Position numbers and translations under genes: made by a program. Below are positions 386-61,200 of a stretch of 64,000 nt of DNA, piece after piece. The notes beneath the pieces were generated by a model. That model was not told where the DNA came from. It made no database searches and saw only the letters and a list, made by a program, of their open reading frames with translations. Where the stretch lies: positions 10,736,175 to 10,800,174 of the forward strand of contig NC_087078.1 of the NCBI RefSeq assembly GCF_026151205.1, written 5' to 3'. Each line of letters starts with the position of its first letter. The stretch's first letter is position 1. Source of the DNA: Bolinopsis microptera (taxonomy: Eukaryota > Ctenophora > Tentaculata > Lobata > Bolinopsidae).

Positions 386-388
386 GAA

Positions 389-31200: not shown

Positions 31201-34200
31201 AACGAGCTCGGAAGTGGGAGCTTTGCCCTCAGAGGTACGTATGTTATAATTTTTTAAGGATTCGAGTCAAAATTTGACGAAAACTATGCATTTCAAGATT
31301 TTAGAAATATATTTTTTTGAAGAAATATCCGGCAAAATTTTCGGAAACCGGACCGGAACCGGAACCGGATATTGAAGCCGGATTCAGCCGAATATCCGGT
31401 CGGTTCCTAGTGAGTATAATGTACAATTATCCGTGGTTACCGTAACTCGTTAAAGTGTAAAAACTAGGTTTATAGCCTCCAGTATGTTATTCATAACAAT
31501 TATCCTGCACTAGGTTAACTCTGGTATCAGCACCTCTACCTCCAGCACATTCTACACTAACATAACATTTATCCTGCACTAGGTTAACTCTGGTATCAGC
31601 ACCTCTACCTCCAGCACATTCTACACTAGCATAACATTTATCCTGCACTAGGTTAACTCTGGTATCAGCACCTCTACCTCCAGCACATTCTACACTAGCA
31701 TAACATTTATCCTGCACTAGGTTAACTCTGGTATCAGCACCTCTACCTCCAGCACATTCTACACTAGCACCCTCTCCATCTCAACTGTAACTCTGTCTGA
31801 TATTGGAACTTACAGCTGCATCGCCACATACACACACAGTGATGGATCCAACCCTGTTGTTTTGAGTGGAACTGTTGTGGTGACTGTGAGAGGATTTGAG
31901 ACCCATCCTGCTGATCAGACAGCAGATCAAGGGTCGGATGTGGTGATGAGTTGTGTGGTTGTCGGGGATCAGAGGGCCAGCATCTCTTGGTGAGTACATC
32001 ACGACACTTCCATGCGTGTTTCTCATTATCACACCGGCTAGTTTACCCAGGAAACTAACTTAACCTCTACTCATGACACATGTTTACCCAGGAAACTAAC
32101 TTTACCTCTACACAGGACACATGATTACCCACGAAACTAACTTTACCTCTACTCAGGACACAAGATTCGGAGGACTTATCAGGTGACGAGGATGTATACG
32201 ATGAGCCCAACAAGAAGACCACAAGCACACTGACTATCAGATCAGCAGTAGCAGATAATACGGGGGTGTATAAGTGTAGGGCTGACTTTGGGGGGACTGT
32301 TGTTGAGAGCGACACTGCTACTCTCACTGTCATTGGTAAGGACGCAGTTGAGAAACAATAATATGTTCTACGATAGTAACTCGCAGTTGAAATAGCTAAA
32401 GTATCTTCTTTTATTTTGTGGTCACCGGTTTCTTATGCCAGGTTGGCCCCCTTAGAGGAACTATTAAATATTTAACCCCATTAGCTTCCCTTAAAGGGCT
32501 ACCACATATTCTCCTTATTTCTTCTTTTCATTCTCTTTTCTTACCCATCAAAATCTTTAACCTTTTCCACATAATAATAAATACCTTTCAGATATTGGCA
32601 TTATTGGAGACCCCACCAACGCAGCGTACCTAGTAGGAGAGGATGCTGTTCTATCCTGTACAATAAGGAACCCAGCCAGCTCCACCCTTACAGTTACCTG
32701 GTACAGGGCTGTTGGTCAGACTGACACTCCCCTGGATCTGACCCTCTTCAACTTTGATTATTCTAACCCTGCAACTTCAACCCTCACGTTTTCTTCGTGA
32801 GTTTTATAATTCTTTTTTTCCCCGTAAGTTTAATGATAAATGACATGATGGTTGATTTCATATCGATTTGATTGATTTCATATCGATTTCATTCAAATTG
32901 CTCCGGAATTTATTTTTCCTCGAGAAAGTACATTCGTTTAGCCATTAAACCACTGTATTTTCTTAACTGATCGGATAGAGACTAAATTTGAACACTCCTT
33001 GTACTCAACAGAGCGACAATGGATAAATCAGGTGTTTACAAATGTGAGGCTGATTATGTGATTAGTGGTCAGACTTTCACCAAAACAAGTGGAACTGCTA
33101 ATCTATATATCAGAGGTTCGTTTAGGGTGCCAGTAGGTTATGAGCTTTGATACTCCGTCAAAAGATGTTACAAAATTGCATATCATTATCCACCATTTTT
33201 ATTTGGATATACACATAAATTATACATTATTATCATACACATGAGATCAGCTCCACAATCATACCATATTATACTTTACAGAGCTGTCGAAAACACTAAA
33301 CGAGTACACGGCTGCTAATTCCTTGGGTGGATCACAAAGATTTACTTGTGAGTATCATGGAGACGATAATGTGGAGGGCGTCACGTGGGTTTACAATGAG
33401 GGAGCTCTGCCGGCTGGTTACTCTGTTACTCAGGTAGAGTTATGGTTGTTATCTTCAGAATCTGAAGTAGTCGTTTTCATAAGATCTGACAATTTGTATG
33501 AATATTTGTTATCTTCATGGCCCACTTCTTGATCAAATACGAAACCTCTGAATTAAATTTATTTGTGTAATAAAAAGAGTACATTTTTAGTTCAATTTCA
33601 ATGTCTTAGGGCAGTTACGGAGGAAATACGGAGAAATGGGAAACAGTTTTAACAGTAGACCCGATTTTAAAGTCCAGTGGGGGAGCGATTAAATGTGCTT
33701 TCTCATTCTCCGGAACCGGCCAGGACATAACATCAACCACAACCTTTAGGGTTCGATGTGAGTTAAATTAATGATTAGTTGTAATTTAGTTTTAACAAAT
33801 TGATTGACCATGTCAATCCCTCACACATTAACGTCAACTCATCTTAAGAAGGCTTGACAGCTCCGGAGGGGCTTTTGAACAGTAAAATTAGTGTTAGTTT
33901 GTAAGGAACAATAACAGTAGCTTTTAAAACAACACGTGTTATCCGTCTTCAGCTTAGAAGCTCCTTATTATTTCAGCTGTGGATCCTCTGGACGCGGAGG
34001 TTTTATCTAGTTTAGAATCGTACACTGTTACCTGTACCTACAAGGGAAATGATGAGCCCTCTGTGTTGTGGGTGGTAGCTGGGTCAATCGTATCTGAATC
34101 TGATGAGGGAATATCTATAAATACCGGATCTGTGAACCACGACACGAATGAAAGGTATGATTTTCAATTGAACGTGATTCGTGAGTCACTTACTTTGTTA

Positions 34201-37200: not shown

Positions 37201-40200
37201 CACTAGGATTCATGGACTGGACATTTAAGACGAGGCATGAGGAATAAGGGGCACGTGTGTCCTCTGAGGCGGTAGGAACTGCGGGTACTGGTAGTGCTAT
37301 AGTGGGAGCGCTGTTCCTGGCTGAAGAGGTGGAGGTGGTCTGGGGTAGTGGTAGGGCATTTGAGTTTGAGAGAGTCACACAATATTTTAATTATCCAGCT
37401 GTTATTTGTCGAGTGAGAACTTGATACTGTTGACAAATATTTCTTTTAAAATGTATCAAACATAATATCCAGGAACGATCAGCTGATTGTCTCGGGACGA
37501 ATTTATTCAGATGCCAGCAAACCAATCACCTGCAAATACATGTTCACGGACCCCGCGGCAGAACTAACAGCTTACACTGTGTTGAAGTTCAGAGGTTTGT
37601 TCGAAATGTTGGATGTAAATTCGTCCAGACAAATAATCAACAATTTTTGAAATAGTCACTGATACAATTTTAATATCAAATGGTTGTCGGCCGCTTAAAA
37701 AAGCAGAGTTGTTTACAATTGAAATAACAGACAAAAATACAGAACTAAAATGTACCTCATCATGTGACACTGCAGTCTCAATAGACACCTCCATAACATC
37801 TACAAATCGAACACTAGTGTGTACTGCATGTCCTATATGCGGCGGCGAAGAGGAGGCTGTCCCTAGTAACTTCGTCGGACAGTGTCCAGCTGTAGCACAG
37901 CTGAGGGGGCAGCACTTTCAGGACTACAACCTCTCCGTCAACGACATATTCGACAACCAACACATTACCACTATTGTAAATTTCGCTAACCACACCAGAC
38001 GCTTATTAGTGCCAGAGGAACAAGATCAAACAGGAGTGACTTAAAGCTATCACAAACGCGGTCCAAGTCACCCTCTCTGGTCATCACATTAATAAACACT
38101 AATACATCTTCACACCATCACCACCTTAACACATCCACCCATTTTACCCCGGTAATCGGTATCCATCAGGGATACTACACCCAGACGCAGACAAAGCATC
38201 TTTATGTTATCCTCTCGTCGGCCAAGAGGTCCAGCCTCTCTTTAAAAAAATTGAAATGCAGGTGATTTTAAGATAGTTATTTTCAGGTTTGACGAGCGGA
38301 TTGAACTCAAAATACTACTCGAGTGGAGCAGCCGTCATAATGCAGTGTGGACTTGGAGTTGGTTCAGAAGGTGCAGATCTAGGTGAAGATCTACCTGCAG
38401 GTGCAGATCTACCTTCTTCAGAAGGTGCTGCACCTAGATCTACCTTCTGGTACGTACAAAGTTGTTATTGAAAAATGGTTCATCATGAAGGTGAATCATA
38501 AATAAAAACTATCGGGAAAATTATGAGTAACAATATAATCCATATCATTTATCATCAATCCATAATTCCTTCTACCTCAGGTACAATATCGACGTAGATG
38601 CCAATGACCCCCTAGTTACGGGCTCTACTTACAAGGTAACAACAGATACCGAGGTAAACAACGGACTCTTCAAGACCACACTGACCATCAAAGAAGAGGG
38701 AATCACCACAACAAATGCTGGGGTCTACATGTGTATGTTCTCTGTATCTGATAGTGAGAGTTATGCATCTAAAGGCAGACTTATAGTGGGGCTTGTTCGC
38801 ACACTTCCTTCCGAAGACAGGGTATATAGTTACGCTAATGCAGGGTTGCAGCTCAGTTGTATTCTTGATGCGAGTGATGAGGTGTCTGCTATTACATGGT
38901 CAGGTCCCGATGGGAAGATAGACCCTTCGCAGTATAGTAGTGACCAGGACGACCCCAACACTCACATTCTGACCCTAACAAGCCGAGCTTCCAGTGGTGA
39001 ATACAGGTGCTCGTTTGTTTTATCTGAGGGAAATGTACCTGAGGGTATTTTCCCTGATGTGAACTTGAACCTGGTAGAGATGGTAAGCTCAGCTGCTATT
39101 TACAGCACCTACGGAGCTGGAATTTCTGTCACACTCACCTGCCAAGTTACCTCTCCCAGAGAAGTTGATCTCTACTTCCACGATGGTTCCCAAGACATTA
39201 GTTCAACAAATTCATACTATAGTGGTCCAACAAATTCATATTATGAAGATGGTAGGACAGTCGCAGAGTATGTCATCACAATTGACTCCTCAAACAAAGA
39301 AGGTATTTTTCAGTGCAATAAAAGCGCAACAGAGTTCAGTCCGACCTCAAGTACCCTTACAGTGTTCTCGATAACAGAGCCACTGACTTCACCAACTCGG
39401 GGTAACATTGGAACAACTGTAACCTTTACTTGTACCGCTCAGTTCCATGCAGATCTGACTGTTCCTGAAGTATCATGGCTGAATGGAGACATTGCAACTC
39501 AAGAGACACCTGAGGCTTTGGTGGTAGCAGAAGATAGCTCTACCATTCAGAGCAAATTGCCCATTACCATATCCCTGGAAAACGACAACAGTGTTTACAA
39601 ATGTGTCATTACTTACAGCGGGCTTGCTACTCATGCTGGGAACTCCCTGGAAAATTCAACAACCGTCATAATGAACAGTAGGTTAATTACAGCTTTATAG
39701 ACAGAGCATATTTCCTCAAAAACTTCAGTTTTATAAAGCCAGTTTAATTGTAAACATTCTTTTAAACAGAAACTTGTATCGTTCATTACTGTGATGTTAC
39801 CAGCACCACATTTCCCTAGAGATTGTAACCAGCTCCCTCGACGCCCCTGTCCAAGTGTTCGCCGGAGACTCAACCACACTCTTCTGTCTTGCCACGGCAG
39901 CACCAGGTGTAGATATTAAGTGGAGGAAGAAAGCGGCAGATTACACCGGACAAAACCAGAACTACATCACTCTGATAGCTGAGCAAGAAGATTATGACAT
40001 CCAGACTGGCACTAGGAAAAGTATTTTGACTCTGTCTTCGCTGATGGGAACTGATGCTAGTGACTCTATTGAGTGTTATGATGATACTGTTGGGATTTCT
40101 GAAGTAATCACTTTAGAAGTTATCGGTGGGTAAAATCTTTGTAATTATTTACATAATTTACATAATATTATATTTTAATTAAAAAAACATTTACTTAATA

Positions 40201-43200
40201 CAGTTTTTTTATAAACGTAACATTATAGTCCTCACAATACGCAGACTCCGAGCAGTCTTATTAACCCAAAGATCTCACTGTCACTTTATTTACTTAAGGT
40301 TTGTTCTTTAGATCGGTATGTATGGAAATTGAAAAGAAACCTTGATAAACAGTGCATAACGTTTAAAATTTAAAATCTTTATTTTCATGGCTACAGGTTA
40401 TTTTGAAATCATATTGATAGGAAAATTCGTAACTTCAGAGGTAGTCGCAAAAGATAGCGAAGTTCTCAAGGACACAGCGGCAACAATATCTTGTGTAGTG
40501 AACGGCCTGACAAAGCAATTGGACGCAGTAACATGGGAGAAACCTAGTTCGGGTGGTGTTATAACTCACGGTACTGCTGCTGAGGACTATCAGATTGCCG
40601 TTGGAACTTACGATTCTGGTTCAAACAGTCAAACTACAGTTCTGACAATTCCTGCCTCTGCAAACGGGGCTGATGCTGGTTACACATGTGTCATTCAATG
40701 TGACGAGCATGGAAAAGACATCAGGGGGGTCTGAAGAGAAAACTAATGTTAACTCGAACGTGTTCAGTGAGTATCTTACTAATATTAACTTTATACGGAT
40801 GTTCAGAAGTTTAATTTTGTTGATTGTGAAGGCACTAACCATACTACACCAATGCAGTTTGTCTAACAGCCGGTTTAGCTAATGATATTAAATGATCTTG
40901 AAACCATTTATCTCATATTATTTCAGCTATCACTCCTGTTGACATGTCAGCAACCACCGCTGTGGATCAGACATTGGTCTGCAATATCGGAGACGTAACT
41001 ACAGCTGTTACTGTATCATGGACGAGTGGAGATAACACCCAAATAACAGACGGTCAGGGAGGATACACTATCACGCAAGGGACAGTTAGCAGCAATATCC
41101 AGGAATCTAGTCTGACCATCACAGCTGCTACGCTACAAGCACAGGACTACAAGTTCAGCTCCGTGATATGGAAGTGTGCAGCTAAGTCCTCACAATACGC
41201 AGACTCAGAGCAGTCTGAATACCAAGATCTCACTGTCACTTTCCTTACTTTAGGTTTGTTCTTTAGATCGGTTTGTATGGAAATTGAAAAGAAACCTAGA
41301 TAAACAGTGCATAACGTTTAAAATTTAAAATCTTTATTTTTATGGCTACAGGTTATTTTGAAATCATATTGGTAAGAAAATTCGTAACTTCAGAGGTAGT
41401 CGCAAAAGACAGCGAAGTTCTCAAGGACACAGCGGCAACAATATCTTGTGTAGTGAACGGCCTGACAAAGCAATTGGACGCGGTAACATGGGAGAAACCT
41501 AGTTCGGGTGGTGTTATAACTCACGGTACTGCTGCTGAGGACTATCAGATTGCCGTTGGAACTTACGATTCTGGTTCAAACAGTCAAACTACAGTTCTGA
41601 CAATTCCTGCCTCTGCAAACGGGGCTGATGCTGGTTACACATGTGTCATTCAATGTGACGAGCATGGAAAGACATCAGGGGGGTCTGAAGAGAAAACTAA
41701 TGTTAACTCGAACGTGTTCAGTGAGTATCTTACTAATATTAACTTTATACGGATGTTCAGAAGTTTAATTTTGTTGATTGTGAAGGCACTAACCATACTA
41801 CACCAATGCAGTTTGTCTAACAGCCGGTTTAGCTAATGATATTAAATGATCTTGAAACCATTTATCTCATATTATTTCAGCTATCACTCCTGTTGACATG
41901 TCAGCAACCACCGCTGTGGATCAGACATTGGTCTGCAATATCGGAGACGTAACTACAGCTGTTACTGTATCATGGACGAGTGGAGATAACACCCAAATAA
42001 CAGACGGTCAGGGAGGATACACTATCACGCAAGGGACAGTTAGCAGCAATATCCAGGAATCTAGTCTGACCATCACAGCTGCTACGCTACAAGGATTGAC
42101 TACAACTTCAGCCCGTGATATGGAAGTGTGCAGCTAAGTCCTCACAATACCCAGACTCAGAGAAGTCTGAATACCAAGATCTCACTGTCACTTTCCTTAC
42201 TTTAGGTTTGTTCTTTAGATCGGTTTGTATGGAAATTGAAAAGAAACCTAGATAAACAGTGCATAACGTTTAAAATTTAAAATCTTTATTTTATGGCTAC
42301 AGGTTATTTTGAAATCATATTGGTAAGAAAATTCGTAACTTCAGAGGTAGTCGCAAAAGACAGCGAAGTTCTCAAGGACACAGCGGCAACAATATCTTGT
42401 GTAGTGAACGGCCTGACAAAGCAATTGGACGCGGTAACATGGGAGAAACCTAGTTCGGGTGGTGTTATAACTCACGGTACTGCTGCTGAGGACTATCAGA
42501 TTGCCGTTGGAACTTACGATTCTGGTTCAAAGAGTCAAACTACAGTTCTGACAATTCCTGCCTCTGCAAACGGGGCTGATGCTGGTTACACATGTGTCAT
42601 TCAATGTGACGAGCATGGAAAGACATCAGGGGGGTCTGAAGAGAAAACTAATGTTAACTCGAACGTGTTCAGTGAGTATCTTACTAATATTAACTTTATA
42701 CGGATGTTCAGAAGTTTAATTTTGTTGATTGTGAAGGCACTAACCATACTACACCAATGCAGTTTGTCTAACAGCCGGTTTAGCTAATGATATTAAATGA
42801 TCTTGAAACCATTTATCTCATATTATTTCAGCTATCACTCCTGTTGACATGTCAGCAACCACCGCTGTGGATCAGACATTGGTCTGCAATATCGGAGACG
42901 TAACTACAGCTGTTACTGTATCATGGACGAGTGGAGATAACACCCAAATAACAGACAGTCAGGGAGGATACACTATCACGCAAGGGACAGTTAGCAGCAA
43001 TATCCAGGAATCTAGTCTGACCATCACAGCTGCTACGCTACAAGGATTGACTACAACTTCAGCTCCGTGATATGGAAGTGTGCAGCTAAGTCCTCACAAT
43101 ACCCAGACTCAGAGAAGTCTGAATACCAAGATCTCACTGTCACTTTCCTTACTTTAGGTTTGTTCTTTAGATCGGTTTGTATGGAAATTGAAAAGAAACC

Positions 43201-46200
43201 TAGATAAACAGTGCATAACGTTTAAAATTTAAAATCTTTATTTTTATGGCTACAGGTTATTTTGAAATCATATTGGTAAGAAAATTCGTAACTTCAGAGG
43301 TAGTCGCAAAAGACAGCGAAGTTCTCAAGGACACAGCGGCAACAATATCTTGTGTAGTGAACGGCCTGACAAAGCAATTGGACGCGGTAACATGGGAGAA
43401 ACCTAGTTCGGGTGGTGTTATAACTCACGGTACTGCTGCTGAGGACTATCAGATTGCCGTTGGAACTTACGATTCTGGTTCAAAGAGTCAAACTACAGTT
43501 CTGACAATTCCTGCCTCTGCAAACGGGGCTGATGCTGGTTACACATGTGTCATTCAATGTGACGAGCATGGAAAGACATCAGGGGGGTCTGAAGAGAAAA
43601 CTAATGTTAACTCGAACGTGTTCAGTGAGTATCTTACTAATATTAACTTTATACGGATGTTCAGAAGTTTAATTTTGTTGATTGTGAAGGCACTAACCAT
43701 ACTACACCAATGCAGTTTGTCTAACAGCCGGTTTAGCTAATGATATTAAATGATCTTGAAACCATTTATCTCATATTATTTCAGCTATCACTCCTGTTGA
43801 CATGTCAGCAACCACCGCTGTGGATCAGACATTGGTCTGCAATATCGGAGACGTAACTACAGCTGTTACTGTATCATGGACGAGTGGAGATAACACCCAA
43901 ATAACAGACGGTCAGGGAGGATACACTATCACGCAAGGGACAGTTAGCAGCAATATCCAGGAATCTAGTCTGACCATCACAGCTGCTACGCTACAAGCAC
44001 AGGAAACAAGTTCAGCTCCGTGATATGGAAGTGTGCAGCTAAGTCCTCACAATACGCAGACTCCGAGCAGTCTGAATACCAAGATCTCACTGTCACTTTC
44101 CTCACTTTAGGTTTGTTCTTTAGATCGGTTTGTATGGAAATTGAAAAGAAACCTAGATAAACAGTGCATAACGTTTAAAATTTAAAATCTTTATTTTCAT
44201 GGCTACAGGTTATTTTGAAATCATATTGGTAAGAAAATTCGTAACTTCAGAGGTAGTCGCAAAAGACAGCGAAGTTCTCAAGGACACAGCGGCAACAATA
44301 TCTTGTGTAGTGAACGGCCTGACAAAGCAATTGGACGCGGTAACATGGGAGAAACCTAGTTCGGGTGGTGTTATAACTCACGGTACTGCTGCTGAGGACT
44401 ATCAGATTGCCGTTGGAACTTACGATTCTGGTTCAAAGAGTCAAACTACAGTTCTGACAATTCCTGCCTCTGCAAACGGGGCTGATGCTGGTTACACATG
44501 TGTCATTCAATGTGACGAGCATGGAAAGACATCAGGGGGGTCTGAAGAGAAAACTAATGTTAACTCGAACGTGTTCAGTGAGTATCTTACTAATATTAAC
44601 TTTATACGGATGTTCAGAAGTTTAATTTTGTTGATTGTGAAGGCACTAACCATACTACACCAATGCAGTTTGTCTAACAGCCGGTTTAGCTAATGATATT
44701 AAATGATCTTGAAACCATTTATCTCATATTATTTCAGCTATCACTCCTGTTGACATGTCAGCAACCACCGCTGTGGATCAGACATTGGTCTGCAATATCG
44801 GAGACGTAACTACAGCTGTTACTGTATCATGGACGAGTGGAGATAACACCCAAATAACAGACAGTCAGGGAGGATACACTATCACGCAAGGGACAGTTAG
44901 CAGCAATATCCAGGAATCTAGTCTGACCATCACAGCTGCTACGCTACAAGCACTGGACTACAACTTCAGCTCCGTGATATGGAAGTGTGCAGCTAAGTCC
45001 TCACAATACCCAGACTCAGAGCAGTCTGAATACCAAGATCTCACTGTCACTTTCCTTACTTTAGGTTTGTTCTTTAGATCGGTTTGTATGGAAATTGAAA
45101 AGAAACCTAGATAAACAGTGCATAACGTTTAAAATTTAAAATCTTTATTTTTATGGCTACAGGTTATTTTGAAATCATATTGGTAAGAAAATTCGTAACT
45201 TCAGAGGTAGTCGCAAAAGACAGCGAAGTTCTCAAGGACACAGCGGCAACAATATCTTGTGTAGTGAACGGCCTGACAAAGCAATTGGACGCGGTAACAT
45301 GGGAGAAACCTAGTTCGGGTGGTGTTATAACTCACGGTACTGCTGCTGAGGACTATCAGATTGCCGTTGGAACTTACGATTCTGGTTCAAAGAGTCAAAC
45401 TACAGTTCTGACAATTCCTGCCTCTGCAAACGGGGCTGATGCTGGTTACACATGTGTCATTCAATGTGACGAGCATGGAAAGACATCAGGGGGGTCTGAA
45501 GAGAAAACTAATGTTAACTCGAACGTGTTCAGTGAGTATCTTACTAATATTAACTTTATACGGATGTTCAGAAGTTTAATTTTGTTGATTGTGAAGGCAC
45601 TAACCATACTACACCAATGCAGTTTGTCTAACAGCCGGTTTAGCTAATGATATTAAATGATCTTGAAACCATTTATCTCATATTATTTCAGCTATCACTC
45701 CTGTTGACATGTCAGCAACCACCGCTGTGGATCAGACATTGGTCTGCAATATCGGAGACGTAACTACAGCTGTTACTGTATCATGGACGAGTGGAGATAA
45801 CACCCAAATAACAGACAGTCAGGGAGGATACACTATCACGCAAGGGACAGTTAGCAGCAATATCCAGGAATCTAGTCTGACCATCACAGCTGCTACGCTA
45901 CAAGGATTGACTACAACTTCACCCGTGATATGGAAGTGTGCAGCTAAGTCCTCACAATACCCAGACTCAGAGAAGTCTGAATACCAAGATCTCACTGTCA
46001 CTTTCCTTACTTTAGGTTTGTTCTTTAGATCGGTTTGTATGGAAATTGAAAAGAAACCTAGATAAACAGTGCATAACGTTTAAAATTTAAAATCTTTATT
46101 TTTATGGCTACAGGTTATTTTGAAATCATATTGGTAAGAAAATTCGTAACTTCAGAGGTAGTCGCAAAAGACAGCGAAGTTCTCAAGGACACAGCGGCAA

Positions 46201-49200
46201 CAATATCTTGTGTAGTGAACGGCCTGACAAAGCAATTGGACGCGGTAACATGGGAGAAACCTAGTTCGGGTGGTGTTATAACTCACGGTACTGCTGCTGA
46301 GGACTATCAGATTGCCGTTGGAACTTACGATTCTGGTTCAAAGAGTCAAACTACAGTTCTGACAATTCCTGCCTCTGCAAACGGGGCTGATGCTGGTTAC
46401 ACATGTGTCATTCAATGTGACGAGCATGGAAAGACATCAGGGGGGTCTGAAGAGAAAACTAATGTTAACTCGAACGTGTTCAGTGAGTATCTTACTAATA
46501 TTAACTTTATACGGATGTTCAGAAGTTTAATTTTGTTGATTGTGAAGGCACTAACCATACTACACCAATGCAGTTTGTCTAACAGCCGGTTTAGCTAATG
46601 ATATTAAATGATCTTGAAACCATTTATCTCATATTATTTCAGCTATCACTCCTGTTGACATGTCAGCAACCACCGCTGTGGATCAGACATTGGTCTGCAA
46701 TATCGGAGACGTAACTACAGCTGTTACTGTATCATGGACGAGTGGAGATAACACCCAAATAACAGACAGTCAGGGAGGATACACTATCACGCAAGGGACA
46801 GTTAGCAGCAATATCCAGGAATCTAGTCTGACCATCACAGCTGCTACGCTACAAGGATTGACTACAACTTCACCCGTGATATGGAAGTGTGCAGCTAAGT
46901 CCTCACAATACCCAGACTCAGAGAAGTCTGAATACCAAGATCTCACTGTCACTTTCCTTACTTTAGGTTTGTTCTTTAGATCGGTTTGTATGGAAATTGA
47001 AAAGAAACCTAGATAAACAGTGCATAACGTTTAAAATTTAAAATCTTTATTTTTATGGCTACAGGTTATTTTGAAATCATATTGGTAAGAAAATTCGTAA
47101 CTTCAGAGGTAGTCGCAAAAGACAGCGAAGTTCTCAAGGACACAGCGGCAACAATATCTTGTGTAGTGAACGGCCTGACAAAGCAATTGGACGCGGTAAC
47201 ATGGGAGAAACCTAGTTCGGGTGGTGTTATAACTCACGGTACTGCTGCTGAGGACTATCAGATTGCCGTTGGAACTTACGATTCTGGTTCAAAGAGTCAA
47301 ACTACAGTTCTGACAATTCCTGCCTCTGCAAACGGGGCTGATGCTGGTTACACATGTGTCATTCAATGTGACGAGCATGGAAAGACATCAGGGGGGTCTG
47401 AAGAGAAAACTAATGTTAACTCGAACGTGTTCAGTGAGTATCTTACTAATATTAACTTTATACGGATGTTCAGAAGTTTAATTTTGTTGATTGTGAAGGC
47501 ACTAACCATACTACACCAATGCAGTTTGTCTAACAGCCGGTTTAGCTAATGATATTAAATGATCTTGAAACCATTTATCTCATATTATTTCAGCTATCAC
47601 TCCTGTTGACATGTCAGCAACCACCGCTGTGGATCAGACATTGGTCTGCAATATCGGAGACGTAACTACAGCTGTTACTGTATCATGGACGAGTGGAGAT
47701 AACACCCAAATAACAGACAGTCAGGGAGGATACACTATCACGCAAGGGACAGTTAGCAGCAATATCCAGGAATCTAGTCTGACCATCACAGCTGCTACGC
47801 TACAAGGATTGACTACAACTTCACCCGTGATATGGAAGTGTGCAGCTAAGTCCTCACAATACCCAGACTCAGAGAAGTCTGAATACCAAGATCTCACTGT
47901 CACTTTCCTTACTTTAGGTTTGTTCTTTAGATCGGTTTGTATGGAAATTGAAAAGAAACCTAGATAAACAGTGCATAACGTTTAAAATTTAAAATCTTTA
48001 TTTTTATGGCTACAGGTTATTTTGAAATCATATTGGTAAGAAAATTCGTAACTTCAGAGGTAGTCGCAAAAGACAGCGAAGTTCTCAAGGACACAGCGGC
48101 AACAATATCTTGTGTAGTGAACGGCCTGACAAAGCAATTGGACGCGGTAACATGGGAGAAACCTAGTTCGGGTGGTGTTATAACTCACGGTACTGCTGCT
48201 GAGGACTATCAGATTGCCGTTGGAACTTACGATTCTGGTTCAAAGAGTCAAACTACAGTTCTGACAATTCCTGCCTCTGCAAACGGGGCTGATGCTGGTT
48301 ACACATGTGTCATTCAATGTGACGAGCATGGAAAGACATCAGGGGGGTCTGAAGAGAAAACTAATGTTAACTCGAACGTGTTCAGTGAGTATCTTACTAA
48401 TATTAACTTTATACGGATGTTCAGAAGTTTAATTTTGTTGATTGTGAAGGCACTAACCATACTACACCAATGCAGTTTGTCTAACAGCCGGTTTAGCTAA
48501 TGATATTAAATGATCTTGAAACCATTTATCTCATATTATTTCAGCTATCACTCCTGTTGACATGTCAGCAACCACCGCTGTGGATCAGACATTGGTCTGC
48601 AATATCGGAGACGTAACTACAGCTGTTACTGTATCATGGACGAGTGGAGATAACACCCAAATAACAGACAGTCAGGGAGGATACACTATCACGCAAGGGA
48701 CAGTTAGCAGCAATATCCAGGAATCTAGTCTGACCATCACAGCTGCTACGCTACAAGGATTGACTACAACTTCAGCCCGTGATATGGAAGTGTGCAGCTA
48801 AGTCCTCACAATACCCAGACTCAGAGAAGTCTGAATACCAAGATCTCACTGTCACTTTCCTTACTTTAGGTTTGTTCTTTAGATCGGTTTGTATGGAAAT
48901 TGAAAAGAAACCTAGATAAACAGTGCATAACGTTTAAAATTTAAAATCTTTATTTTTATGGCTACAGGTTATTTTGAAATCATATTGGTAAGAAAATTCG
49001 TAACTTCAGAGGTAGTCGCAAAAGACAGCGAAGTTCTCAAGGACACAGCGGCAACAATATCTTGTGTAGTGAACGGCCTGACAAAGCAATTGGACGCGGT
49101 AACATGGGAGAAACCTAGTTCGGGTGGTGTTATAACTCACGGTACTGCTGCTGAGGACTATCAGATTGCCGTTGGAACTTACGATTCTGGTTCAAAGAGT

Positions 49201-52200
49201 CAAACTACAGTTCTGACAATTCCTGCCTCTGCAAACGGGGCTGATGCTGGTTACACATGTGTCATTCAATGTGACGAGCATGGAAAGACATCAGGGGGGT
49301 CTGAAGAGAAAACTAATGTTAACTCGAACGTGTTCAGTGAGTATCTTACTAATATTAACTTTATACGGATGTTCAGAAGTTTAATTTTGTTGATTGTGAA
49401 GGCACTAACCATACTACACCAATGCAGTTTGTCTAACAGCCGGTTTAGCTAATGATATTAAATGATCTTGAAACCATTTATCTCATATTATTTCAGCTAT
49501 CACTCCTGTTGACATGTCAGCAACCACCGCTGTGGATCAGACATTGGTCTGCAATATCGGAGACGTAACTACAGCTGTTACTGTATCATGGACGAGTGGA
49601 GATAACACCCAAATAACAGACAGTCAGGGAGGATACACTATCACGCAAGGGACAGTTAGCAGCAATATCCAGGAATCTAGTCTGACCATCACAGCTGCTA
49701 CGCTACAAGGATTGACTACAACTTCACCCGTGATATGGAAGTGTGCAGCTAAGTCCTCACAATACCCAGACTCAGAGAAGTCTGAATACCAAGATCTCAC
49801 TGTCACTTTCCTTACTTTAGGTTTGTTCTTTAGATCGGTTTGTATGGAAATTGAAAAGAAACCTAGATAAACAGTGCATAACGTTTAAAATTTAAAATCT
49901 TTATTTTTATGGCTACAGGTTATTTTGAAATCATATTGGTAAGAAAATTCGTAACTTCAGAGGTAGTCGCAAAAGACAGCGAAGTTCTCAAGGACACAGC
50001 GGCAACAATATCTTGTGTAGTGAACGGCCTGACAAAGCAATTGGACGCGGTAACATGGGAGAAACCTAGTTCGGGTGGTGTTATAACTCACGGTACTGCT
50101 GCTGAGGACTATCAGATTGCCGTTGGAACTTACGATTCTGGTTCAAAGAGTCAAACTACAGTTCTGACAATTCCTGCCTCTGCAAACGGGGCTGATGCTG
50201 GTTACACATGTGTCATTCAATGTGACGAGCATGGAAAGACATCAGGGGGGTCTGAAGAGAAAACTAATGTTAACTCGAACGTGTTCAGTGAGTATCTTAC
50301 TAATATTAACTTTATACGGATGTTCAGAAGTTTAATTTTGTTGATTGTGAAGGCACTAACCATACTACACCAATGCAGTTTGTCTAACAGCCGGTTTAGC
50401 TAATGATATTAAATGATCTTGAAACCATTTATCTCATATTATTTCAGCTATCACTCCTGTTGACATGTCAGCAACCACCGCTGTGGATCAGACATTGGTC
50501 TGCAATATCGGAGACGTAACTACAGCTGTTACTGTATCATGGACGAGTGGAGATAACACCCAAATAACAGACAGTCAGGGAGGATACACTATCACGCAAG
50601 GGACAGTTAGCAGCAATATCCAGGAATCTAGTCTGACCATCACAGCTGCTACGCTACAAGGATTGACTACAACTTCACCCGTGATATGGAAGTGTGCAGC
50701 TAAGTCCTCACAATACCCAGACTCAGAGAAGTCTGAATACCAAGATCTCACTGTCACTTTCCTTACTTTAGGTTTGTTCTTTAGATCGGTTTGTATGGAA
50801 ATTGAAAAGAAACCTAGATAAACAGTGCATAACGTTTAAAATTTAAAATCTTTATTTTTATGGCTACAGGTTATTTTGAAATCATATTGGTAAGAAAATT
50901 CGTAACTTCAGAGGTAGTCGCAAAAGACAGCGAAGTTCTCAAGGACACAGCGGCAACAATATCTTGTGTAGTGAACGGCCTGACAAAGCAATTGGACGCG
51001 GTAACATGGGAGAAACCTAGTTCGGGTGGTGTTATAACTCACGGTACTGCTGCTGAGGACTATCAGATTGCCGTTGGAACTTACGATTCTGGTTCAAAGA
51101 GTCAAACTACAGTTCTGACAATTCCTGCCTCTGCAAACGGGGCTGATGCTGGTTACACATGTGTCATTCAATGTGACGAGCATGGAAAGACATCAGGGGG
51201 GTCTGAAGAGAAAACTAATGTTAACTCGAACGTGTTCAGTGAGTATCTTACTAATATTAACTTTATACGGATGTTCAGAAGTTTAATTTTGTTGATTGTG
51301 AAGGCACTAACCATACTACACCAATGCAGTTTGTCTAACAGCCGGTTTAGCTAATGATATTAAATGATCTTGAAACCATTTATCTCATATTATTTCAGCT
51401 ATCACTCCTGTTGACATGTCAGCAACCACCGCTGTGGATCAGACATTGGTCTGCAATATCGGAGACGTAACTACAGCTGTTACTGTATCATGGACGAGTG
51501 GAGATAACACCCAAATAACAGACAGTCAGGGAGGATACACTATCACGCAAGGGACAGTTAGCAGCAATATCCAGGAATCTAGTCTGACCATCACAGCTGC
51601 TACGCTACAAGGATTGACTACAACTTCACCCGTGATATGGAAGTGTGCAGCTAAGTCCTCACAATACCCAGACTCAGAGAAGTCTGAATACCAAGATCTC
51701 ACTGTCACTTTCCTTACTTTAGGTTTGTTCTTTAGATCGGTTTGTATGGAAATTGAAAAGAAACCTAGATAAACAGTGCATAACGTTTAAAATTTAAAAT
51801 CTTTATTTTTATGGCTACAGGTTATTTTGAAATCATATTGGTAAGAAAATTCGTAACTTCAGAGGTAGTCGCAAAAGACAGCGAAGTTCTCAAGGACACA
51901 GCGGCAACAATATCTTGTGTAGTGAACGGCCTGACAAAGCAATTGGACGCGGTAACATGGGAGAAACCTAGTTCGGGTGGTGTTATAACTCACGGTACTG
52001 CTGCTGAGGACTATCAGATTGCCGTTGGAACTTACGATTCTGGTTCAAAGAGTCAAACTACAGTTCTGACAATTCCTGCCTCTGCAAACGGGGCTGATGC
52101 TGGTTACACATGTGTCATTCAATGTGACGAGCATGGAAAGACATCAGGGGGGTCTGAAGAGAAAACTAATGTTAACTCGAACGTGTTCAGTGAGTATCTT

Positions 52201-55200
52201 ACTAATATTAACTTTATACGGATGTTCAGAAGTTTAATTTTGTTGATTGTGAAGGCACTAACCATACTACACCAATGCAGTTTGTCTAACAGCCGGTTTA
52301 GCTAATGATATTAAATGATCTTGAAACCATTTATCTCATATTATTTCAGCTATCACTCCTGTTGACATGTCAGCAACCACCGCTGTGGATCAGACATTGG
52401 TCTGCAATATCGGAGACGTAACTACAGCTGTTACTGTATCATGGACGAGTGGAGATAACACCCAAATAACAGACAGTCAGGGAGGATACACTATCACGCA
52501 AGGGACAGTTAGCAGCAATATCCAGGAATCTAGTCTGACCATCACAGCTGCTACGCTACAAGGATTGACTACAACTTCACCCGTGATATGGAAGTGTGCA
52601 GCTAAGTCCTCACAATACCCAGACTCAGAGAAGTCTGAATACCAAGATCTCACTGTCACTTTCCTTACTTTAGGTTTGTTCTTTAGATCGGTTTGTATGG
52701 AAATTGAAAAGAAACCTAGATAAACAGTGCATAACGTTTAAAATTTAAAATCTTTATTTTTATGGCTACAGGTTATTTTGAAATCATATTGGTAAGAAAA
52801 TTCGTAACTTCAGAGGTAGTCGCAAAAGACAGCGAAGTTCTCAAGGACACAGCGGCAACAATATCTTGTGTAGTGAACGGCCTGACAAAGCAATTGGACG
52901 CGGTAACATGGGAGAAACCTAGTTCGGGTGGTGTTATAACTCACGGTACTGCTGCTGAGGACTATCAGATTGCCGTTGGAACTTACGATTCTGGTTCAAA
53001 GAGTCAAACTACAGTTCTGACAATTCCTGCCTCTGCAAACGGGGCTGATGCTGGTTACACATGTGTCATTCAATGTGACGAGCATGGAAAGACATCAGGG
53101 GGGTCTGAAGAGAAAACTAATGTTAACTCGAACGTGTTCAGTGAGTATCTTACTAATATTAACTTTATACGGATGTTCAGAAGTTTAATTTTGTTGATTG
53201 TGAAGGCACTAACCATACTACACCAATGCAGTTTGTCTAACAGCCGGTTTAGCTAATGATATTAAATGATCTTGAAACCATTTATCTCATATTATTTCAG
53301 CTATCACTCCTGTTGACATGTCAGCAACCACCGCTGTGGATCAGACATTGGTCTGCAATATCGGAGACGTAACTACAGCTGTTACTGTATCATGGACGAG
53401 TGGAGATAACACCCAAATAACAGACAGTCAGGGAGGATACACTATCACGCAAGGGACAGTTAGCAGCAATATCCAGGAATCTAGTCTGACCATCACAGCT
53501 GCTACGCTACAAGGATTGACTACAACTTCACCCGTGATATGGAAGTGTGCAGCTAAGTCCTCACAATACCCAGACTCAGAGAAGTCTGAATACCAAGATC
53601 TCACTGTCACTTTCCTTACTTTAGGTTTGTTCTTTAGATCGGTTTGTATGGAAATTGAAAAGAAACCTAGATAAACAGTGCATAACGTTTAAAATTTAAA
53701 ATCTTTATTTTTATGGCTACAGGTTATTTTGAAATCATATTGGTAAGAAAATTCGTAACTTCAGAGGTAGTCGCAAAAGACAGCGAAGTTCTCAAGGACA
53801 CAGCGGCAACAATATCTTGTGTAGTGAACGGCCTGACAAAGCAATTGGACGCGGTAACATGGGAGAAACCTAGTTCGGGTGGTGTTATAACTCACGGTAC
53901 TGCTGCTGAGGACTATCAGATTGCCGTTGGAACTTACGATTCTGGTTCAAAGAGTCAAACTACAGTTCTGACAATTCCTGCCTCTGCAAACGGGGCTGAT
54001 GCTGGTTACACATGTGTCATTCAATGTGACGAGCATGGAAAGACATCAGGGGGGTCTGAAGAGAAAACTAATGTTAACTCGAACGTGTTCAGTGAGTATC
54101 TTACTAATATTAACTTTATACGGATGTTCAGAAGTTTAATTTTGTTGATTGTGAAGGCACTAACCATACTACACCAATGCAGTTTGTCTAACAGCCGGTT
54201 TAGCTAATGATATTAAATGATCTTGAAACCATTTATCTCATATTATTTCAGCTATCACTCCTGTTGACATGTCAGCAACCACCGCTGTGGATCAGACATT
54301 GGTCTGCAATATCGGAGACGTAACTACAGCTGTTACTGTATCATGGACGAGTGGAGATAACACCCAAATAACAGACAGTCAGGGAGGATACACTATCACG
54401 CAAGGGACAGTTAGCAGCAATATCCAGGAATCTAGTCTGACCATCACAGCTGCTACGCTACAAGGATTGACTACAACTTCACCCGTGATATGGAAGTGTG
54501 CAGCTAAGTCCTCACAATACCCAGACTCAGAGAAGTCTGAATACCAAGATCTCACTGTCACTTTCCTTACTTTAGGTTTGTTCTTTAGATCGGTTTGTAT
54601 GGAAATTGAAAAGAAACCTAGATAAACAGTGCATAACGTTTAAAATTTAAAATCTTTATTTTTATGGCTACAGGTTATTTTGAAATCATATTGGTAAGAA
54701 AATTCGTAACTTCAGAGGTAGTCGCAAAAGACAGCGAAGTTCTCAAGGACACAGCGGCAACAATATCTTGTGTAGTGAACGGCCTGACAAAGCAATTGGA
54801 CGCGGTAACATGGGAGAAACCTAGTTCGGGTGGTGTTATAACTCACGGTACTGCTGCTGAGGACTATCAGATTGCCGTTGGAACTTACGATTCTGGTTCA
54901 AAGAGTCAAACTACAGTTCTGACAATTCCTGCCTCTGCAAACGGGGCTGATGCTGGTTACACATGTGTCATTCAATGTGACGAGCATGGAAAGACATCAG
55001 GGGGGTCTGAAGAGAAAACTAATGTTAACTCGAACGTGTTCAGTGAGTATCTTACTAATATTAACTTTATACGGATGTTCAGAAGTTTAATTTTGTTGAT
55101 TGTGAAGGCACTAACCATACTACACCAATGCAGTTTGTCTAACAGCCGGTTTAGCTAATGATATTAAATGATCTTGAAACCATTTATCTCATATTATTTC

Positions 55201-58200
55201 AGCTATCACTCCTGTTGACATGTCAGCAACCACCGCTGTGGATCAGACATTGGTCTGCAATATCGGAGACGTAACTACAGCTGTTACTGTATCATGGACG
55301 AGTGGAGATAACACCCAAATAACAGACAGTCAGGGAGGATACACTATCACGCAAGGGACAGTTAGCAGCAATATCCAGGAATCTAGTCTGACCATCACAG
55401 CTGCTACGCTACAAGGATTGACTACAACTTCACCCGTGATATGGAAGTGTGCAGCTAAGTCCTCACAATACCCAGACTCAGAGAAGTCTGAATACCAAGA
55501 TCTCACTGTCACTTTCCTTACTTTAGGTTTGTTCTTTAGATCGGTTTGTATGGAAATTGAAAAGAAACCTAGATAAACAGTGCATAACGTTTAAAATTTA
55601 AAATCTTTATTTTTATGGCTACAGGTTATTTTGAAATCATATTGGTAAGAAAATTCGTAACTTCAGAGGTAGTCGCAAAAGACAGCGAAGTTCTCAAGGA
55701 CACAGCGGCAACAATATCTTGTGTAGTGAACGGCCTGACAAAGCAATTGGACGCGGTAACATGGGAGAAACCTAGTTCGGGTGGTGTTATAACTCACGGT
55801 ACTGCTGCTGAGGACTATCAGATTGCCGTTGGAACTTACGATTCTGGTTCAAAGAGTCAAACTACAGTTCTGACAATTCCTGCCTCTGCAAACGGGGCTG
55901 ATGCTGGTTACACATGTGTCATTCAATGTGACGAGCATGGAAAGACATCAGGGGGGTCTGAAGAGAAAACTAATGTTAACTCGAACGTGTTCAGTGAGTA
56001 TCTTACTAATATTAACTTTATACGGATGTTCAGAAGTTTAATTTTGTTGATTGTGAAGGCACTAACCATACTACACCAATGCAGTTTGTCTAACAGCCGG
56101 TTTAGCTAATGATATTAAATGATCTTGAAACCATTTATCTCATATTATTTCAGCTATCACTCCTGTTGACATGTCAGCAACCACCGCTGTGGATCAGACA
56201 TTGGTCTGCAATATCGGAGACGTAACTACAGCTGTTACTGTATCATGGACGAGTGGAGATAACACCCAAATAACAGACGGTCAGGGAGGATACACTATTA
56301 CGCAAGGGACAGTTAGCAGCAATATCCAGGAATCTAGTCTGACCATCACAGCTGCTACGCTACAAGCACAGGAAACAAGTTCAGGCTCCGTGATATGGAA
56401 GTGTGCAGCTAAGTCCTCACAATACGCAGACTCCGAGCAGTCTGAATACCAAGATCTCACTGTCACTTTCCTCACTTTAGGTTTGTTCTTTAGATCGGTT
56501 TGTATGGAAATTGAAAAGAAACCTAGATAAACAGTGCATAACGTTTAAAATTTAAAATCTTTATTTTCATGGCTACAGGTTATTTTGAAATCATATTGGT
56601 AAGAAAATTCGTAACTTCAGAGGTAGTCGCAAAAGACAGCGAAGTTCTCAAGGACACAGCGGCAACAATATCTTGTGTAGTGTACGGCCTGACAAAGCAA
56701 TTGGACGCGGTAACATGGGAGAAACCTAGTTCGGGTGGTGTTATAACTCACGGTACTGCTGCTGAGGACTATCAGATTGCCGTTGGAACTTACGATTCTG
56801 GTTCAAAGAGTCAAACTACAGTTCTGACAATTCCTGCCTCTGCAAACGGGGCTGATGCTGGTTACACATGTGTCATTCAATGTGACGAGCATGGAAAGAC
56901 ATCAGGGGGGTCTGAAGAGAAAACTAATGTTAACTCGAACGTGTTCAGTGAGTATCTTACTAATATTAACTTTATACGGATGTTCAGAAGTTTAATTTTG
57001 TTGATTGTGAAGGCACTAACCATACTACACCAATGCAGTTTGTCTAACAGCCGGTTTAGCTAATGATATTAAATGATCTTGAAACCATTTATCTCATATT
57101 ATTTCAGCTATCACTCCTGTTGACATGTCAGCAACCACCGCTGTGGATCAGACATTGGTCTGCAATATCGGAGACGTAACTACAGCTGTTACTGTATCAT
57201 GGACGAGTGGAGATAACACCCAAATAACAGACGGTCAGGGAGGATACACTATTACGCAAGGGACAGTTAGCAGCAATATCCAGGAATCTAGTCTGACCAT
57301 CACAGCTGCTACGCTACAAGCACAGGAAACAAGTTCAGGCTCCGTGATATGGAAGTGTGCAGCTAAGTCCTCACAATACGCAGACTCCGAGCAGTCTGAA
57401 TACCAAGATCTCACTGTCACTTTCCTCACTTTAGGTTTGTTCTTTAGATCGGTTTGTATGGAAATTGAAAAGAAACCTAGATAAACAGTGCATAACGTTT
57501 AAAATTTAAAATCTTTATTTTCATGGCTACAGGTTATTTTGAAATCATATTGGTAAGAAAATTCGTAACTTCAGAGGTAGTCGCAAAAGACAGCGAAGTT
57601 CTCAAGGACACAGCGGCAACAATATCTTGTGTAGTGAACGGCCTGACAAAGCAATTGGACGCGGTAACATGGGAGAAACCTAGTTCGGGTGGTGTTATAA
57701 CTCACGGTACTGCTGCTGAGGACTATCAGATTGCCGTTGGAACTTACGATTCTGGTTCAAAGAGTCAAACTACAGTTCTGACAATTCCTGCCTCTGCAAA
57801 CGGGGCTGATGCTGGTTACACATGTGTCATTCAATGTGACGAGCATGGAAAGACATCAGGGGGGTCTGAAGAGAAAACTAATGTTAACTCGAACGTGTTC
57901 AGTGAGTATCTTACTAATATTAACTTTATACGGATGTTCAGAAGTTTAATTTTGTTGATTGTGAAGGCACTAACCATACTACACCAATGCAGTTTGTCTA
58001 ACAGCCGGTTTAGCTAATGATATTAAATGATCTTGAAACCATTTATCTCATATTATTTCAGCTATCACTCCTGTTGACATGTCAGCAACCACCGCTGTGG
58101 ATCAGACATTGGTCTGCAATATCGGAGACGTAACTACAGCTGTTACTGTATCATGGACGAGTGGAGATAACACCCAAATAACAGACGGTCAGGGAGGATA

Positions 58201-61200
58201 CACTATTACGCAAGGGACAGTTAGCAGCAATATCCAGGAATCTAGTCTGACCATCACAGCTGCTACGCTACAAGCACAGGAAACAAGTTCAGGCTCCGTG
58301 ATATGGAAGTGTGCAGCTAAGTCCTCACAATACGCAGACTCCGAGCAGTCTGAATACCAAGATCTCACTGTCACTTTCCTCACTTTAGGTTTGTTCTTTA
58401 GATCGGTTTGTATGGAAATTGAAAAGAAACCTAGATAAACAGTGCATAACGTTTAAAATTTAAAATCTTTATTTTCATGGCTACAGGTTATTTTGAAATC
58501 ATATTGGTAAGAAAATTCGTAACTTCAGAGGTAGTCGCAAAAGACAGCGAAGTTCTCAAGGACACAGCGGCAACAATATCTTGTGTAGTGTACGGCCTGA
58601 CAAAGCAATTGGACGCGGTAACATGGGAGAAACCTAGTTCGGGTGGTGTTATAACTCACGGTACTGCTGCTGAGGACTATCAGATTGCCGTTGGAACTTA
58701 CGATTCTGGTTCAAAGAGTCAAACTACAGTTCTGACAATTCCTGCCTCTGCAAACGGGGCTGATGCTGGTTACACATGTGTCATTCAATGTGACGAGCAT
58801 GGAAAGACATCAGGGGGGTCTGAAGAGAAAACTAATGAACTCGAACGTGTTCAGTGAGTATCTTACTAATATTAACTTTATACGGATGTTCAGAAGTTTA
58901 ATTTTGTTGATTGTGAAGGCACTAACCATACTACACCAATGCAGTTTGTCTAACAGCCGGTTTAGCTAATGATATTAAATGATCTTTAAACAATTTTATC
59001 TAGTAAATTTTATTTTACAAAAGCCCAAAGGTCTTTCGTATTTGGTCGTTTCATTATTTCTAAATGAAATGTTTGTCCAAATTTTATTTTATATAGCCCT
59101 TGAGAAATCCTGCTCCTATGTAATTATGTAAGATAGCAGATTCCCAATACCACTATTACTAATAGTAATATTAATGAGACAGTACAGCTTTGTTTGTTAA
59201 TATTGTACAATGCTTGTAATTTACGGACCGAAAATCGTCTTTTATTTTTATGACTACAGTTTATTTTAAAATCATATTGGTAAGAAAATTCGCAATTTCA
59301 GCGGTAGAAGCAAAGGACAGCGAAGTTCTCAAAGACACAGCGGCAACAATATCTTGTGTAGTGACAGGCCTGACAAAGCAATTGGGGGCAGTAACATGGG
59401 AGAAACCTAGTCCGGGTGCTGTTATAACTGATGATACTGAAGGTTATCAGATTGACATTGGAACTTACGATCCTGCCACCAACATTCAAACTACAATTCT
59501 GACTGTACCTGCTGGTGAAAACACGGCTGATGCTGTTTACACATGTGTCATACAACCTGACGAGCATGGAAAATCATCAGCGTCTCCACAAAAGACTGAT
59601 GTCAACTCTAATGTTTTCAGTGAGTAATATTGATACATTTTGAGAACCACAATGTGTATAACGAGCTGTCTTATTCGAATTTTGCAGCAGTAATCTTTCT
59701 TGATTTAGGCTATTTTAGTTACAACTACATGTAATGATATTTTAACACATTTAAGTGTGCGTTAACCGTGTGTTAACCGTGTGTTAACCGTGTGTTATTT
59801 GACCACCGATAGTTTACCAATTTCCTGGCTATTGCAGTTGGAGGGGGTGTTTTAATCCAATCTTACTATATATAAAGCGAGACGATATATATTTATCCGT
59901 GCCATTTTACTGACACCACGGCATCAACTTTAACGCAAATTTCCGCAAAACCCGTAAAATATATACAACTGAAACTTTTTTGACTGGGTCAAATGCTTTA
60001 CTGGCCTCCAAATCAGCATGAAAAAATAAAAAATAGGCCAAGAAATAGGAGTTTTAGAGCCCAAAATGTGGTACCCCAAGTGGTGTCAAAAACGCGAATT
60101 AAATAGGTAATAATTATTTTGGTTTCTTGAGTCTTGACACCATTTTAGGGTTATACGGGTTCCTGCTAGTAATACGAAACAGCCAAGGTTTTATTTGTTA
60201 TAACTATTGACGGTGGCTCGATGAACGCATTTGGTTTCTTTGTGGACACAATCGAATGATTTTGCTGCTGCTGATATAGTAGAAGATATTTAATTAATTT
60301 CAATACACTCACTCGACAGAGAGCAAGTATAAAAGGGCATAGAAAGTTTTAGCTTCGTAAAGTTGCCCCTTGATGTCAGTTATTTCAGTTATGAGCTCCA
60401 ATAGAACAAATGTGATTCTGTCTATGAAAGGAACGTCGTTGAATTCACTAGGAATGTTTTCCAAGGGGGCCGCACTTCATTGTGGCACATTGCCCAGGCT
60501 TTGTATCTGTTTTTCGACCAGTTATTTTGATTATTTGACCCCTGACCCTCCGAATCAGCTGCCAGTAGCTGCAATTGATCTTCACTCAGTGGTCGCATGT
60601 TCATGAATAAAAAAGGATCAACAAAGGATCTAGCAACTGACTAGCGACTGACAAGTTTGGAAATGTTCAGATTTGGGATCGTGCCAAAGTGTGCAGCACG
60701 TGTCGACGAGATTTAGTGCATATAATTCCCCGAAATAGTTCCAAAATCCAAGCCTAAGTCATGCACGATCCTCTTATGAGAGATGTAGTAATCTGGTGGA
60801 TTCGTGAAGTGTTATTGAGTCTCATGATTTGATAGTTCTTTCATTCAAATTTCTGATCGTTTCTGAATAAACTCAATCAGAAATTTGAATGAAAGAGATG
60901 TAGTAGCTACATTTCAATCATTGTGGATATAGTAAAACCATAGAATACCCTTGTTAACTCGATGTTTACATTTATTTTAAAGGTATCTAAATCTTTGTTT
61001 TTATAAAATCTAATTGCAGCGCTATCTACAATGGATACTGTGTACTACAGCCCCACGAGTATAGAGGTGACAGTGGAAGGACGTTATGAGCCACAAATAA
61101 TTTGGTTCATTGGAGGACAGGCGTACAGCTCTCAAGATAATCCCAATTTGACCCCAACAATTTCATCGGTATGGTCTGGGTCCAAAAAGACCTTTAATCT

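Follow-up and report, generated by a model that had tools for sequence, protein, structure and literature searches.

A homogenised array of paired immunoglobulin exons in a predicted receptor gene of the ctenophore Bolinopsis microptera, with related arrays at other loci

The array and the predicted gene around it

The window analysed here is a stretch of 64,000 nucleotides from the ctenophore Bolinopsis microptera (NCBI RefSeq assembly GCF_026151205.1, contig NC_087078.1, positions 10,736,175 to 10,800,174 of the forward strand). It holds a tandem array of paired exons, A and B, each coding for an immunoglobulin (Ig) domain, inside a gene predicted to encode a very large receptor. Contigs are labelled C1 to C11 below, and the window is part of C7. 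Autocorrelation and BLAST place a direct repeat with a period of 951 base pairs (bp) at 40227..59001. Complete units occupy 40360-58449 (n = 19) and are followed by 552 bp of a 20th unit (58450-59001), which ends in intron 1 and has exon A without exon B. The parts of the array are as follows.

40360..59001, plus strand: the tandem array as a whole, with A-B units of 951-955 bp, 19 of them complete and the 20th partial (BLAST and autocorrelation)
40227..40359, plus strand: stub at the head of the array, a 3' piece of exon B with the next intron, 133 bp, 90% identical
45126..55587, plus strand: units 6-16, ten identical units and unit 9
46114..46482, plus strand: unit 7, exon A, an Ig-domain exon of 369 bp in phase 1 that served as the template for the remaining A exons
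46483..46642, plus strand: unit 7, intron 1, the 160 bp between exons A and B
46643..46966, plus strand: unit 7, exon B (type 1), an Ig-domain exon of 324 bp in phase 1
46967..47064, plus strand: unit 7, intron 2, the 98 bp from exon B to the next exon A
56154..56480, plus strand: unit 17, exon B in its 327-bp form (type 2, shared by units 17-19)

Each unit consists of exon A (369 bp), an intron of 160 bp, exon B (324 or 327 bp) and an intron of 98 bp. In order along the array, the complete units measure 955, 952, 952, 953 and 954 bp, then 951 or 952 bp in 11 units and 954 bp in the last three. By length this amounts to about 19.7 copies, so the 20 units of 951-955 bp counted in the sequence-only reading, an earlier note on this DNA, are a fair figure, except that the last is incomplete. 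That reading also described coding and intron sequence alike as nearly identical, and this is borne out: ten of the 20 units (6-8 and 10-16) are the same in all 951 letters, introns included. The sole departure within units 6-16 is one extra base in exon B of unit 9; otherwise, sequence differences are confined to units 1-5 and 17-20. Chance or low complexity as the source of the repeat was ruled out, as units of 951 bp share 98-100% identity.

Exons A and B both start and end in phase 1, and whole units could therefore be gained or lost in frame. Two symmetric phase-1 Ig exons are present in each complete unit, as had been claimed, although six exons carry frameshifts. What the sequence supports is thus a frame-safe cassette, a symmetric and homogenised two-Ig unit within one predicted receptor gene. 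The donor site of exon B is weak (gtttgt), and the aligned position reads gtaagt in most of the sister arrays inspected. In modelled folds, both exons show the two-sheet Ig fold, the paired cysteines and the core tryptophan by which membership of the Ig superfamily is judged. The high fold matches include Ig domains of NCAM, titin and twitchin, and antigen receptors too. The C1-set family (PF07654) was matched by 17 of the 34 members of the A-type alignment at an E value of 0.01 or better, the window's exon A itself having no match, and it was absent from the families listed for 20 B-type members. A profile of exon A matches antibody light chains, mainly their second domain (best E 9.2e-5). 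The C1-set subtype is commonly tied to vertebrate antigen receptors.

Two of the 20 A exons and four of the 19 B exons are frameshifted, which leaves 18 and 15 open; 14 of the 19 complete pairs are open in both. The frameshifts lie in 1A, 2B, 3B, 4B, 9B and 20A and weigh against an intact coding array. Four of the five broken complete pairs fail at the site where the two open types of exon B differ, type 1 (324 bp) being found in units 6-8 and 10-16 and type 2 (327 bp) in units 17-19. The length changes of 2B, 3B, 4B and 9B fall at alignment columns 799-801, which hold the three bases separating the types, and the units of a sister array on C4 (C4a, described below) carry the type-1 sequence at this position. 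The portion of the published account that deals with the assembly (PMC10232365) names wtdbg2, TGS-Gapcloser, Purge Haplotigs and short-read polishing with pilon. Because the faults sit at the type-1/type-2 indel in an assembly made by wtdbg2, gap closing and pilon, these four frameshifts look like a blended consensus, which is the simplest reading. True null mutations were considered for the same four exons and thought unlikely, as all fall at that indel. The frameshifts in 1A and 20A lie outside this explanation. Given an assembly built by these steps, haplotig purging included, the exact identity and exact number of the units are unproven; both hinge on wtdbg2 and pilon, which can distort either, and this too counts against the reading proposed below.

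Around the array, the window contains the following features of the predicted gene.

19186..19245, plus strand: first coding exon, with a signal-peptide-like sequence (by eye)
19357..20438, plus strand: four N-terminal exons, an unnamed cysteine-containing region (boundaries by eye)
20592..20879, plus strand: exon with a GCC2/GCC3 (Ephrin_rec_like) domain, PF07699 (boundaries by eye)
21072..21243, plus strand: cysteine-bearing exon, probably the one read earlier as CCP, without a Pfam match
22126..28158, minus strand: reverse-transcriptase element of long interspersed nuclear element (LINE) type, situated among the gene's exons but no part of the receptor
29189..34157, plus strand: exons for Ig domains, 5' of the array and delimited by eye
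34228..37145, minus strand: second reverse-transcriptase element of LINE type between exons of the gene
38531..40127, plus strand: open frame and exon with Ig domains directly upstream of the array
59260..59619, plus strand: diverged A-type Ig exon 3' of the array
61020..64000, plus strand: more Ig exons, running beyond the end of the window

Exon boundaries outside the array were set by eye, and the gene model is a prediction from sequence alone; the signal-peptide-like and membrane-helix segments were identified by eye and hydropathy, and the splices joining them are predicted only. A gene with signal peptide, CCP and GCC2/GCC3 domains had been proposed. The first of these corresponds to the signal-peptide-like exon, and GCC2/GCC3 is matched on the joined exons at 29.1 bits against a cut-off of 23.1 (PF07699). 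The CCP domain was not confirmed: CCP/sushi had no Pfam match at E values up to 0.1, nor up to 1 on the joined exons. The fourth N-terminal exon has paralogues elsewhere in the genome.

Two points go beyond the earlier note: the sister arrays in the genome, and the continuation of the predicted gene outside the window, as far as a membrane helix and a stop codon. Past the window lie cysteine-bearing exons and, at about C7:10806032-10806103, a hydrophobic segment as long as a membrane helix, and the predicted stop, at about C7:10806486-10806488, comes after LIKRRSEDVSTP. The predicted cytoplasmic tail has 12 residues. This helix is one of eight hydrophobic stretches and was picked by eye for its place and splice sites, which counts against the predicted membrane topology.

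Three other repeats lie in the window. Four tandem copies of 69 bp (99%) at 31492-31769 run into an Ig exon of the array gene; a copia-type retrotransposon with one long open frame is found at 383-4678; and a 37-bp minisatellite of about 17 copies (80% matches) is found at 13198-13848.

Related arrays at other loci

The search for relatives with exons A and B that the sequence-only reading had asked for was productive. It scored 150 of 737 exon A candidates and 150 of 372 exon B candidates across the genome, and the locus counts are accordingly lower bounds. Relatives of exon A were found at at least 13 loci including the window, on seven contigs (C1, C3, C4, C5, C7, C9 and C10), and relatives of exon B additionally on C2 and C6. 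Sequence was retrieved for nine regions, C3 and C5 being left out.

The array C4a (at C4:3.53 megabases) has 27 complete units of 950 bp, 24 of them identical. Exon B is open in 27 of 27 units and exon A in all but two. The odd units are unit 1, whose outer edge carries three differences, and two units with indels of 1-2 bases. These two, the only complete units of C4a with indels, adjoin one another (C4:3541972-3543869), as at a join of two consensus stretches. In the flanks of C4a, no clear Ig or membrane exons were seen outside the array; a 100-N gap lies upstream, along with simple repeats. On C9, the array C9c has a period of 1040 bp across 11.4 kilobases (kb), C9b has a period of 1057-1060 bp, and C9a contains two different arrays, of 899/1056 bp and 940 bp. 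The period of C1a is 1034-1041 bp, and further arrays were found on C10. Several loci hold arrays of 2-7 visibly different units.

The modules flanking the array recur as well, the N-terminal one at other loci and the C-terminal one on C9 and C11. At C9c, the N-terminal module (70-75%), the array and C-terminal pieces (47-59%, a weak match) follow one another on one strand, and this order, being the same as in the window, supports reading the modules as one gene.

Four other places in the genome are of note. The plus strand of C9:9729210-9789679 carries Ig exons and an N-terminal module like that of the window (95% in its first exon piece), followed on the minus strand by a C-terminal module and an array; an inversion splitting one gene, real or in the assembly, is a possible cause. 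C9d (C9:3664741-3677649) has seven different parsed A-B pairs that are apparently mosaics of one another, unlike the uniform arrays. A piece of the C-terminal module is present in five tandem copies, spaced about 810-860 bp apart, at C11:17958511-17962029. At C5:15992019-16045274, 53 kb hold at least 33 diverged Ig exons (41-50% identical to exon A) that are apparently unhomogenised.

These loci bear on the question of how much of the window's array was made by the assembly. It may be that the array is real and that its unit count and perfect identity are not, wtdbg2 having merged or miscounted units and pilon, whose short reads fit every unit equally well, having drawn them to one consensus. 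We consider this a serious possibility, at somewhat less than an even chance. It would fit the programs used (PMC10232365, in its assembly portion), the position of four of the six window frameshifts (2B, 3B, 4B, 9B) in the columns separating the exon B types, and the 24 identical units out of 27 in C4a, where only unit 1 and the two neighbours with indels depart from the rest. However, such an origin does not sit well with the arrays of visibly different units at other loci, or with metagenome proteins that, by eye, bear the exon A types of four loci. Seven proteins, four of A type and three of B type, come from a contig or contigs of equal length, 151,037 bases, and likewise speak against such an origin. 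Moreover, assemblers collapse arrays more commonly than they invent copies.

Divergence between loci and its possible causes

A tree was built from 95 A exons; these came from ten regions, bore 11 locus labels and comprised 39 different sequences, one exon A of C9a having been left out for a wrongly cut start. The labels need 12 changes on this tree, where the minimum is 10 and the mean of shuffled labels is 44.3, and none of 200 shuffles was as low, although near-copies alone push such a clustering score up. The window's 20 units form one clade (support 97/91), and so do the units of C1a (100/99), C4b-right (100/96) and, with weaker support, C4a (85/75); A exons are identical within C9b and likewise within C9c. 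The A-type exon 3' of the array, at 59260..59619, pairs with an A exon of C9a (99/89), outside the clade of the window's array, so that the flank retains a shared ancestry that the arrays do not. Uniformity within the locus in most arrays, combined with differences between loci, supports concerted evolution as judged from the sequences. C9d, C9a and C4b-left cluster by locus no better than shuffles do, and to that extent tell against it.

The introns of the window's subfamily diverge unevenly. Intron 2 (98 bp) differs at 0-3 of 98 positions between the arrays of C7, C4 and C9 (four loci). Intron 1 of unit 7 differs from that of C4a, C4b and C9a units at 11-13 of 158 positions (about 7-9%), and C4a differs from C4b by only 1-2%. 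The near-invariance of intron 2 could come from recent exchange between loci or from a functional element in the intron.

A second subfamily was parsed wherever units had recognisable splice sites, giving 38 A-B pairs from seven loci (9 of the 11 A exons listed for C9b were taken in). In all but one of these pairs (37/38) the frame is open and each exon length is a multiple of three (A 306-318 bp, B 333-345 bp), a restriction that does not apply to their introns. In the window's subfamily, too, open exons differ in length by multiples of three. The array as a dead or non-coding satellite with decayed Ig exons is therefore hardly credible, since 14 of 19 pairs in the window, all B and nearly all A exons of C4a and nearly all sister pairs are open, and indels between loci keep the frame of open exons; the six frameshifted exons and the last unit's missing exon B are what such a satellite would explain. 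It was ruled out as the principal explanation by these open frames.

Divergence was tested on the 25 distinct pairs among the 38, the identical ones and the frameshifted one being left out. Ten between-locus comparisons were made, with the first open unit each of C9b, C9c, C1a, C4b-left and C10b, leaving out C9d and C10a. In nine of the ten, 12-16% of nonsynonymous sites differ (a proportion of differing nonsynonymous sites, pN, of 0.12-0.16), compared with 1.5-5.9% of intron positions (0.015-0.059) and 3-13% of synonymous sites. Nonsynonymous change exceeds intron change in these nine (Fisher p 1.9e-4 to 5.6e-11), and the tenth pair is nearly identical (p 0.065). The ten pairs are not independent of one another; C9c-C1a (5.6e-11) and C9b-C4b (1.9e-4) share no branch of the tree, and both show the contrast. 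Within loci, the excess of nonsynonymous over intron change reaches p < 0.05 for 7 of the 21 C9d pairs, two of the three C4b-left pairs and none of the 15 C1a pairs.

This contrast bears on whether the Ig pairs form a stalk with a structural or adhesive role, serving as a spacer or elastic element, with a sequence of little weight and an array that drifts under weak constraint. We think this rather unlikely. Relaxed constraint alone should bring amino-acid change at most to the level of the introns, but between the five loci it lies above them, and frames were kept in nearly all parsed pairs. Part of the evidence is nonetheless what a stalk would lead one to expect: the ratio of nonsynonymous to synonymous change (dN/dS) in the window's subfamily is mostly 0.4-1.2, the tail is very short, and NCAM, titin and twitchin Ig domains are among the high fold matches, though antigen receptors are as well.

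Several findings weigh against diversification by selection as a general rule. First, pN exceeds its synonymous counterpart, pS, at p < 0.05 in only three of the ten comparisons between loci, and gene conversion favouring introns could account for part of the contrast between exons and introns. Second, in the pairs involving C10a (6 of all 21 locus pairs), introns have diverged about as much as exons or more, and intron 2 of the C9d representative is very different (0.34). Third, the contrast does not hold throughout the window's own subfamily, in which pN is not above intron 1 and the dN/dS range given above is exceeded for the window against C9a units (3.7 and 5.5). Between loci of this subfamily, positions 151-300 of exon A differ by 6-15%, and residues 47-97 give a pN/pS of 2.0-2.7 (pairwise sums over four sequences), a figure that we do not rely on. 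Positive selection within the window's subfamily was accordingly set aside as a claim, as the local excess of pN/pS comes from four sequences. Among the variable residues of six loci, compared between strands and other residues, no bias was found for A (p 0.27), and those of B are weakly enriched outside strands (p 0.03).

A proposed receptor family and its nearest known systems

The frame-safe anatomy of the cassette, the uniformity within most loci and the contrast between exons and introns in one subfamily can be read from the DNA itself. With somewhat better than even confidence, we propose that the array gene belongs to a multi-locus family whose members encode very large membrane receptors, single-pass and serving recognition or adhesion, and whose cassettes are homogenised within a locus and diversified between loci. 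The predicted protein would begin with a signal peptide and a cysteine-containing N-terminal part with GCC2/GCC3, and continue through Ig domains, the A-B array and more Ig domains to a membrane-near cysteine-containing part, one transmembrane helix and the 12-residue tail. We suggest that: unequal crossing-over and gene conversion would maintain uniformity in each array and allow drift in its length; selection would favour different surfaces at different loci; and each protein would present, on a long stalk, multiple copies of a single binding surface, which may provide avidity and reach. Variation between individuals in allele length, reach and avidity, raised as a possibility in the sequence-only reading, goes beyond what one assembly supports. 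Putative targets are other cells, gametes or microbes. The tail suggests adhesion, or a partner for signalling; any signalling would probably go through such a partner because the tail is very short.

The nearest described kind of array is, by analogy, the kringle IV-2 repeat of human LPA. This is a two-exon coding repeat with a 5.6-kb unit (PMC6314250); an allele carries from 1 to more than 40 copies, a few subtypes of the unit exist, and the isoforms of the protein number more than 40. The likeness lies in a two-exon coding cassette repeated head to tail within one gene (here a predicted one), with phases that keep the frame. The differences are that the LPA exons together make one kringle, whereas here each exon makes a whole Ig domain; that the LPA unit is 5.6 kb, and units here are under 1.1 kb; that variation between people is shown for LPA, and one assembly was read here; and that several loci here have separate arrays with signs of diversification between them. 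The array had been called unusual and not recognised in the sequence-only reading. That view gives way, as the array is one of several in its own genome and a coding two-exon cassette is described for LPA in the same source.

Other systems resemble the array in single respects. VERL, the abalone egg receptor for lysin, is a fast-evolving recognition protein whose tandem ZP domains undergo concerted evolution; like the present array, it has tandem domains homogenised in this way, but the domain is ZP, the taxon is another and the present gene has no known link to gametes. The Alr allorecognition genes of Hydractinia are a cluster of strongly diverse transmembrane Ig-superfamily genes in an invertebrate; near-identical arrays of about 20 Ig pairs are not known in them. 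Hemicentin, titin and other long Ig-array proteins also have many tandem Ig domains, mostly old and mutually diverged, whereas here the DNA is homogenised, introns included.

Arthropod Dscam, with arrays of mutually exclusive Ig exons in one gene, suggests a different use of the array, in which one or a few A-B pairs would be chosen for each messenger RNA. Symmetric phase-1 exons are freely skippable, and the seven different parsed pairs of C9d would yield a repertoire. However, Dscam alternatives differ from one another, and here ten of 20 units are identical; as most units are identical in the window, C4a and C9c, choice among them would create no diversity, and we consider such a mechanism very improbable.

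A genome paper (PMC11797021) counts hundreds of genes that have domains such as I-set and V-set, and then turns to four other domains. At its widest, our proposal would be of a ctenophore recognition system that rests on coding repeats of variable copy number. It would comprise a dozen or more giant membrane receptors, and many of these would have a homogenised Ig-pair array of their own, variable in length and diversified by selection between loci, so that an individual would carry a personal set of lengths and surfaces for telling cells, gametes or microbes apart. This larger picture is speculative, and we hold it as doubtful. A family that is uniform inside most loci, with protein surfaces differing between loci, is a concrete candidate for the recognition of self, mate or microbe, and it adds a multi-locus case to the study of how coding tandem cassettes spread, homogenise and diversify.

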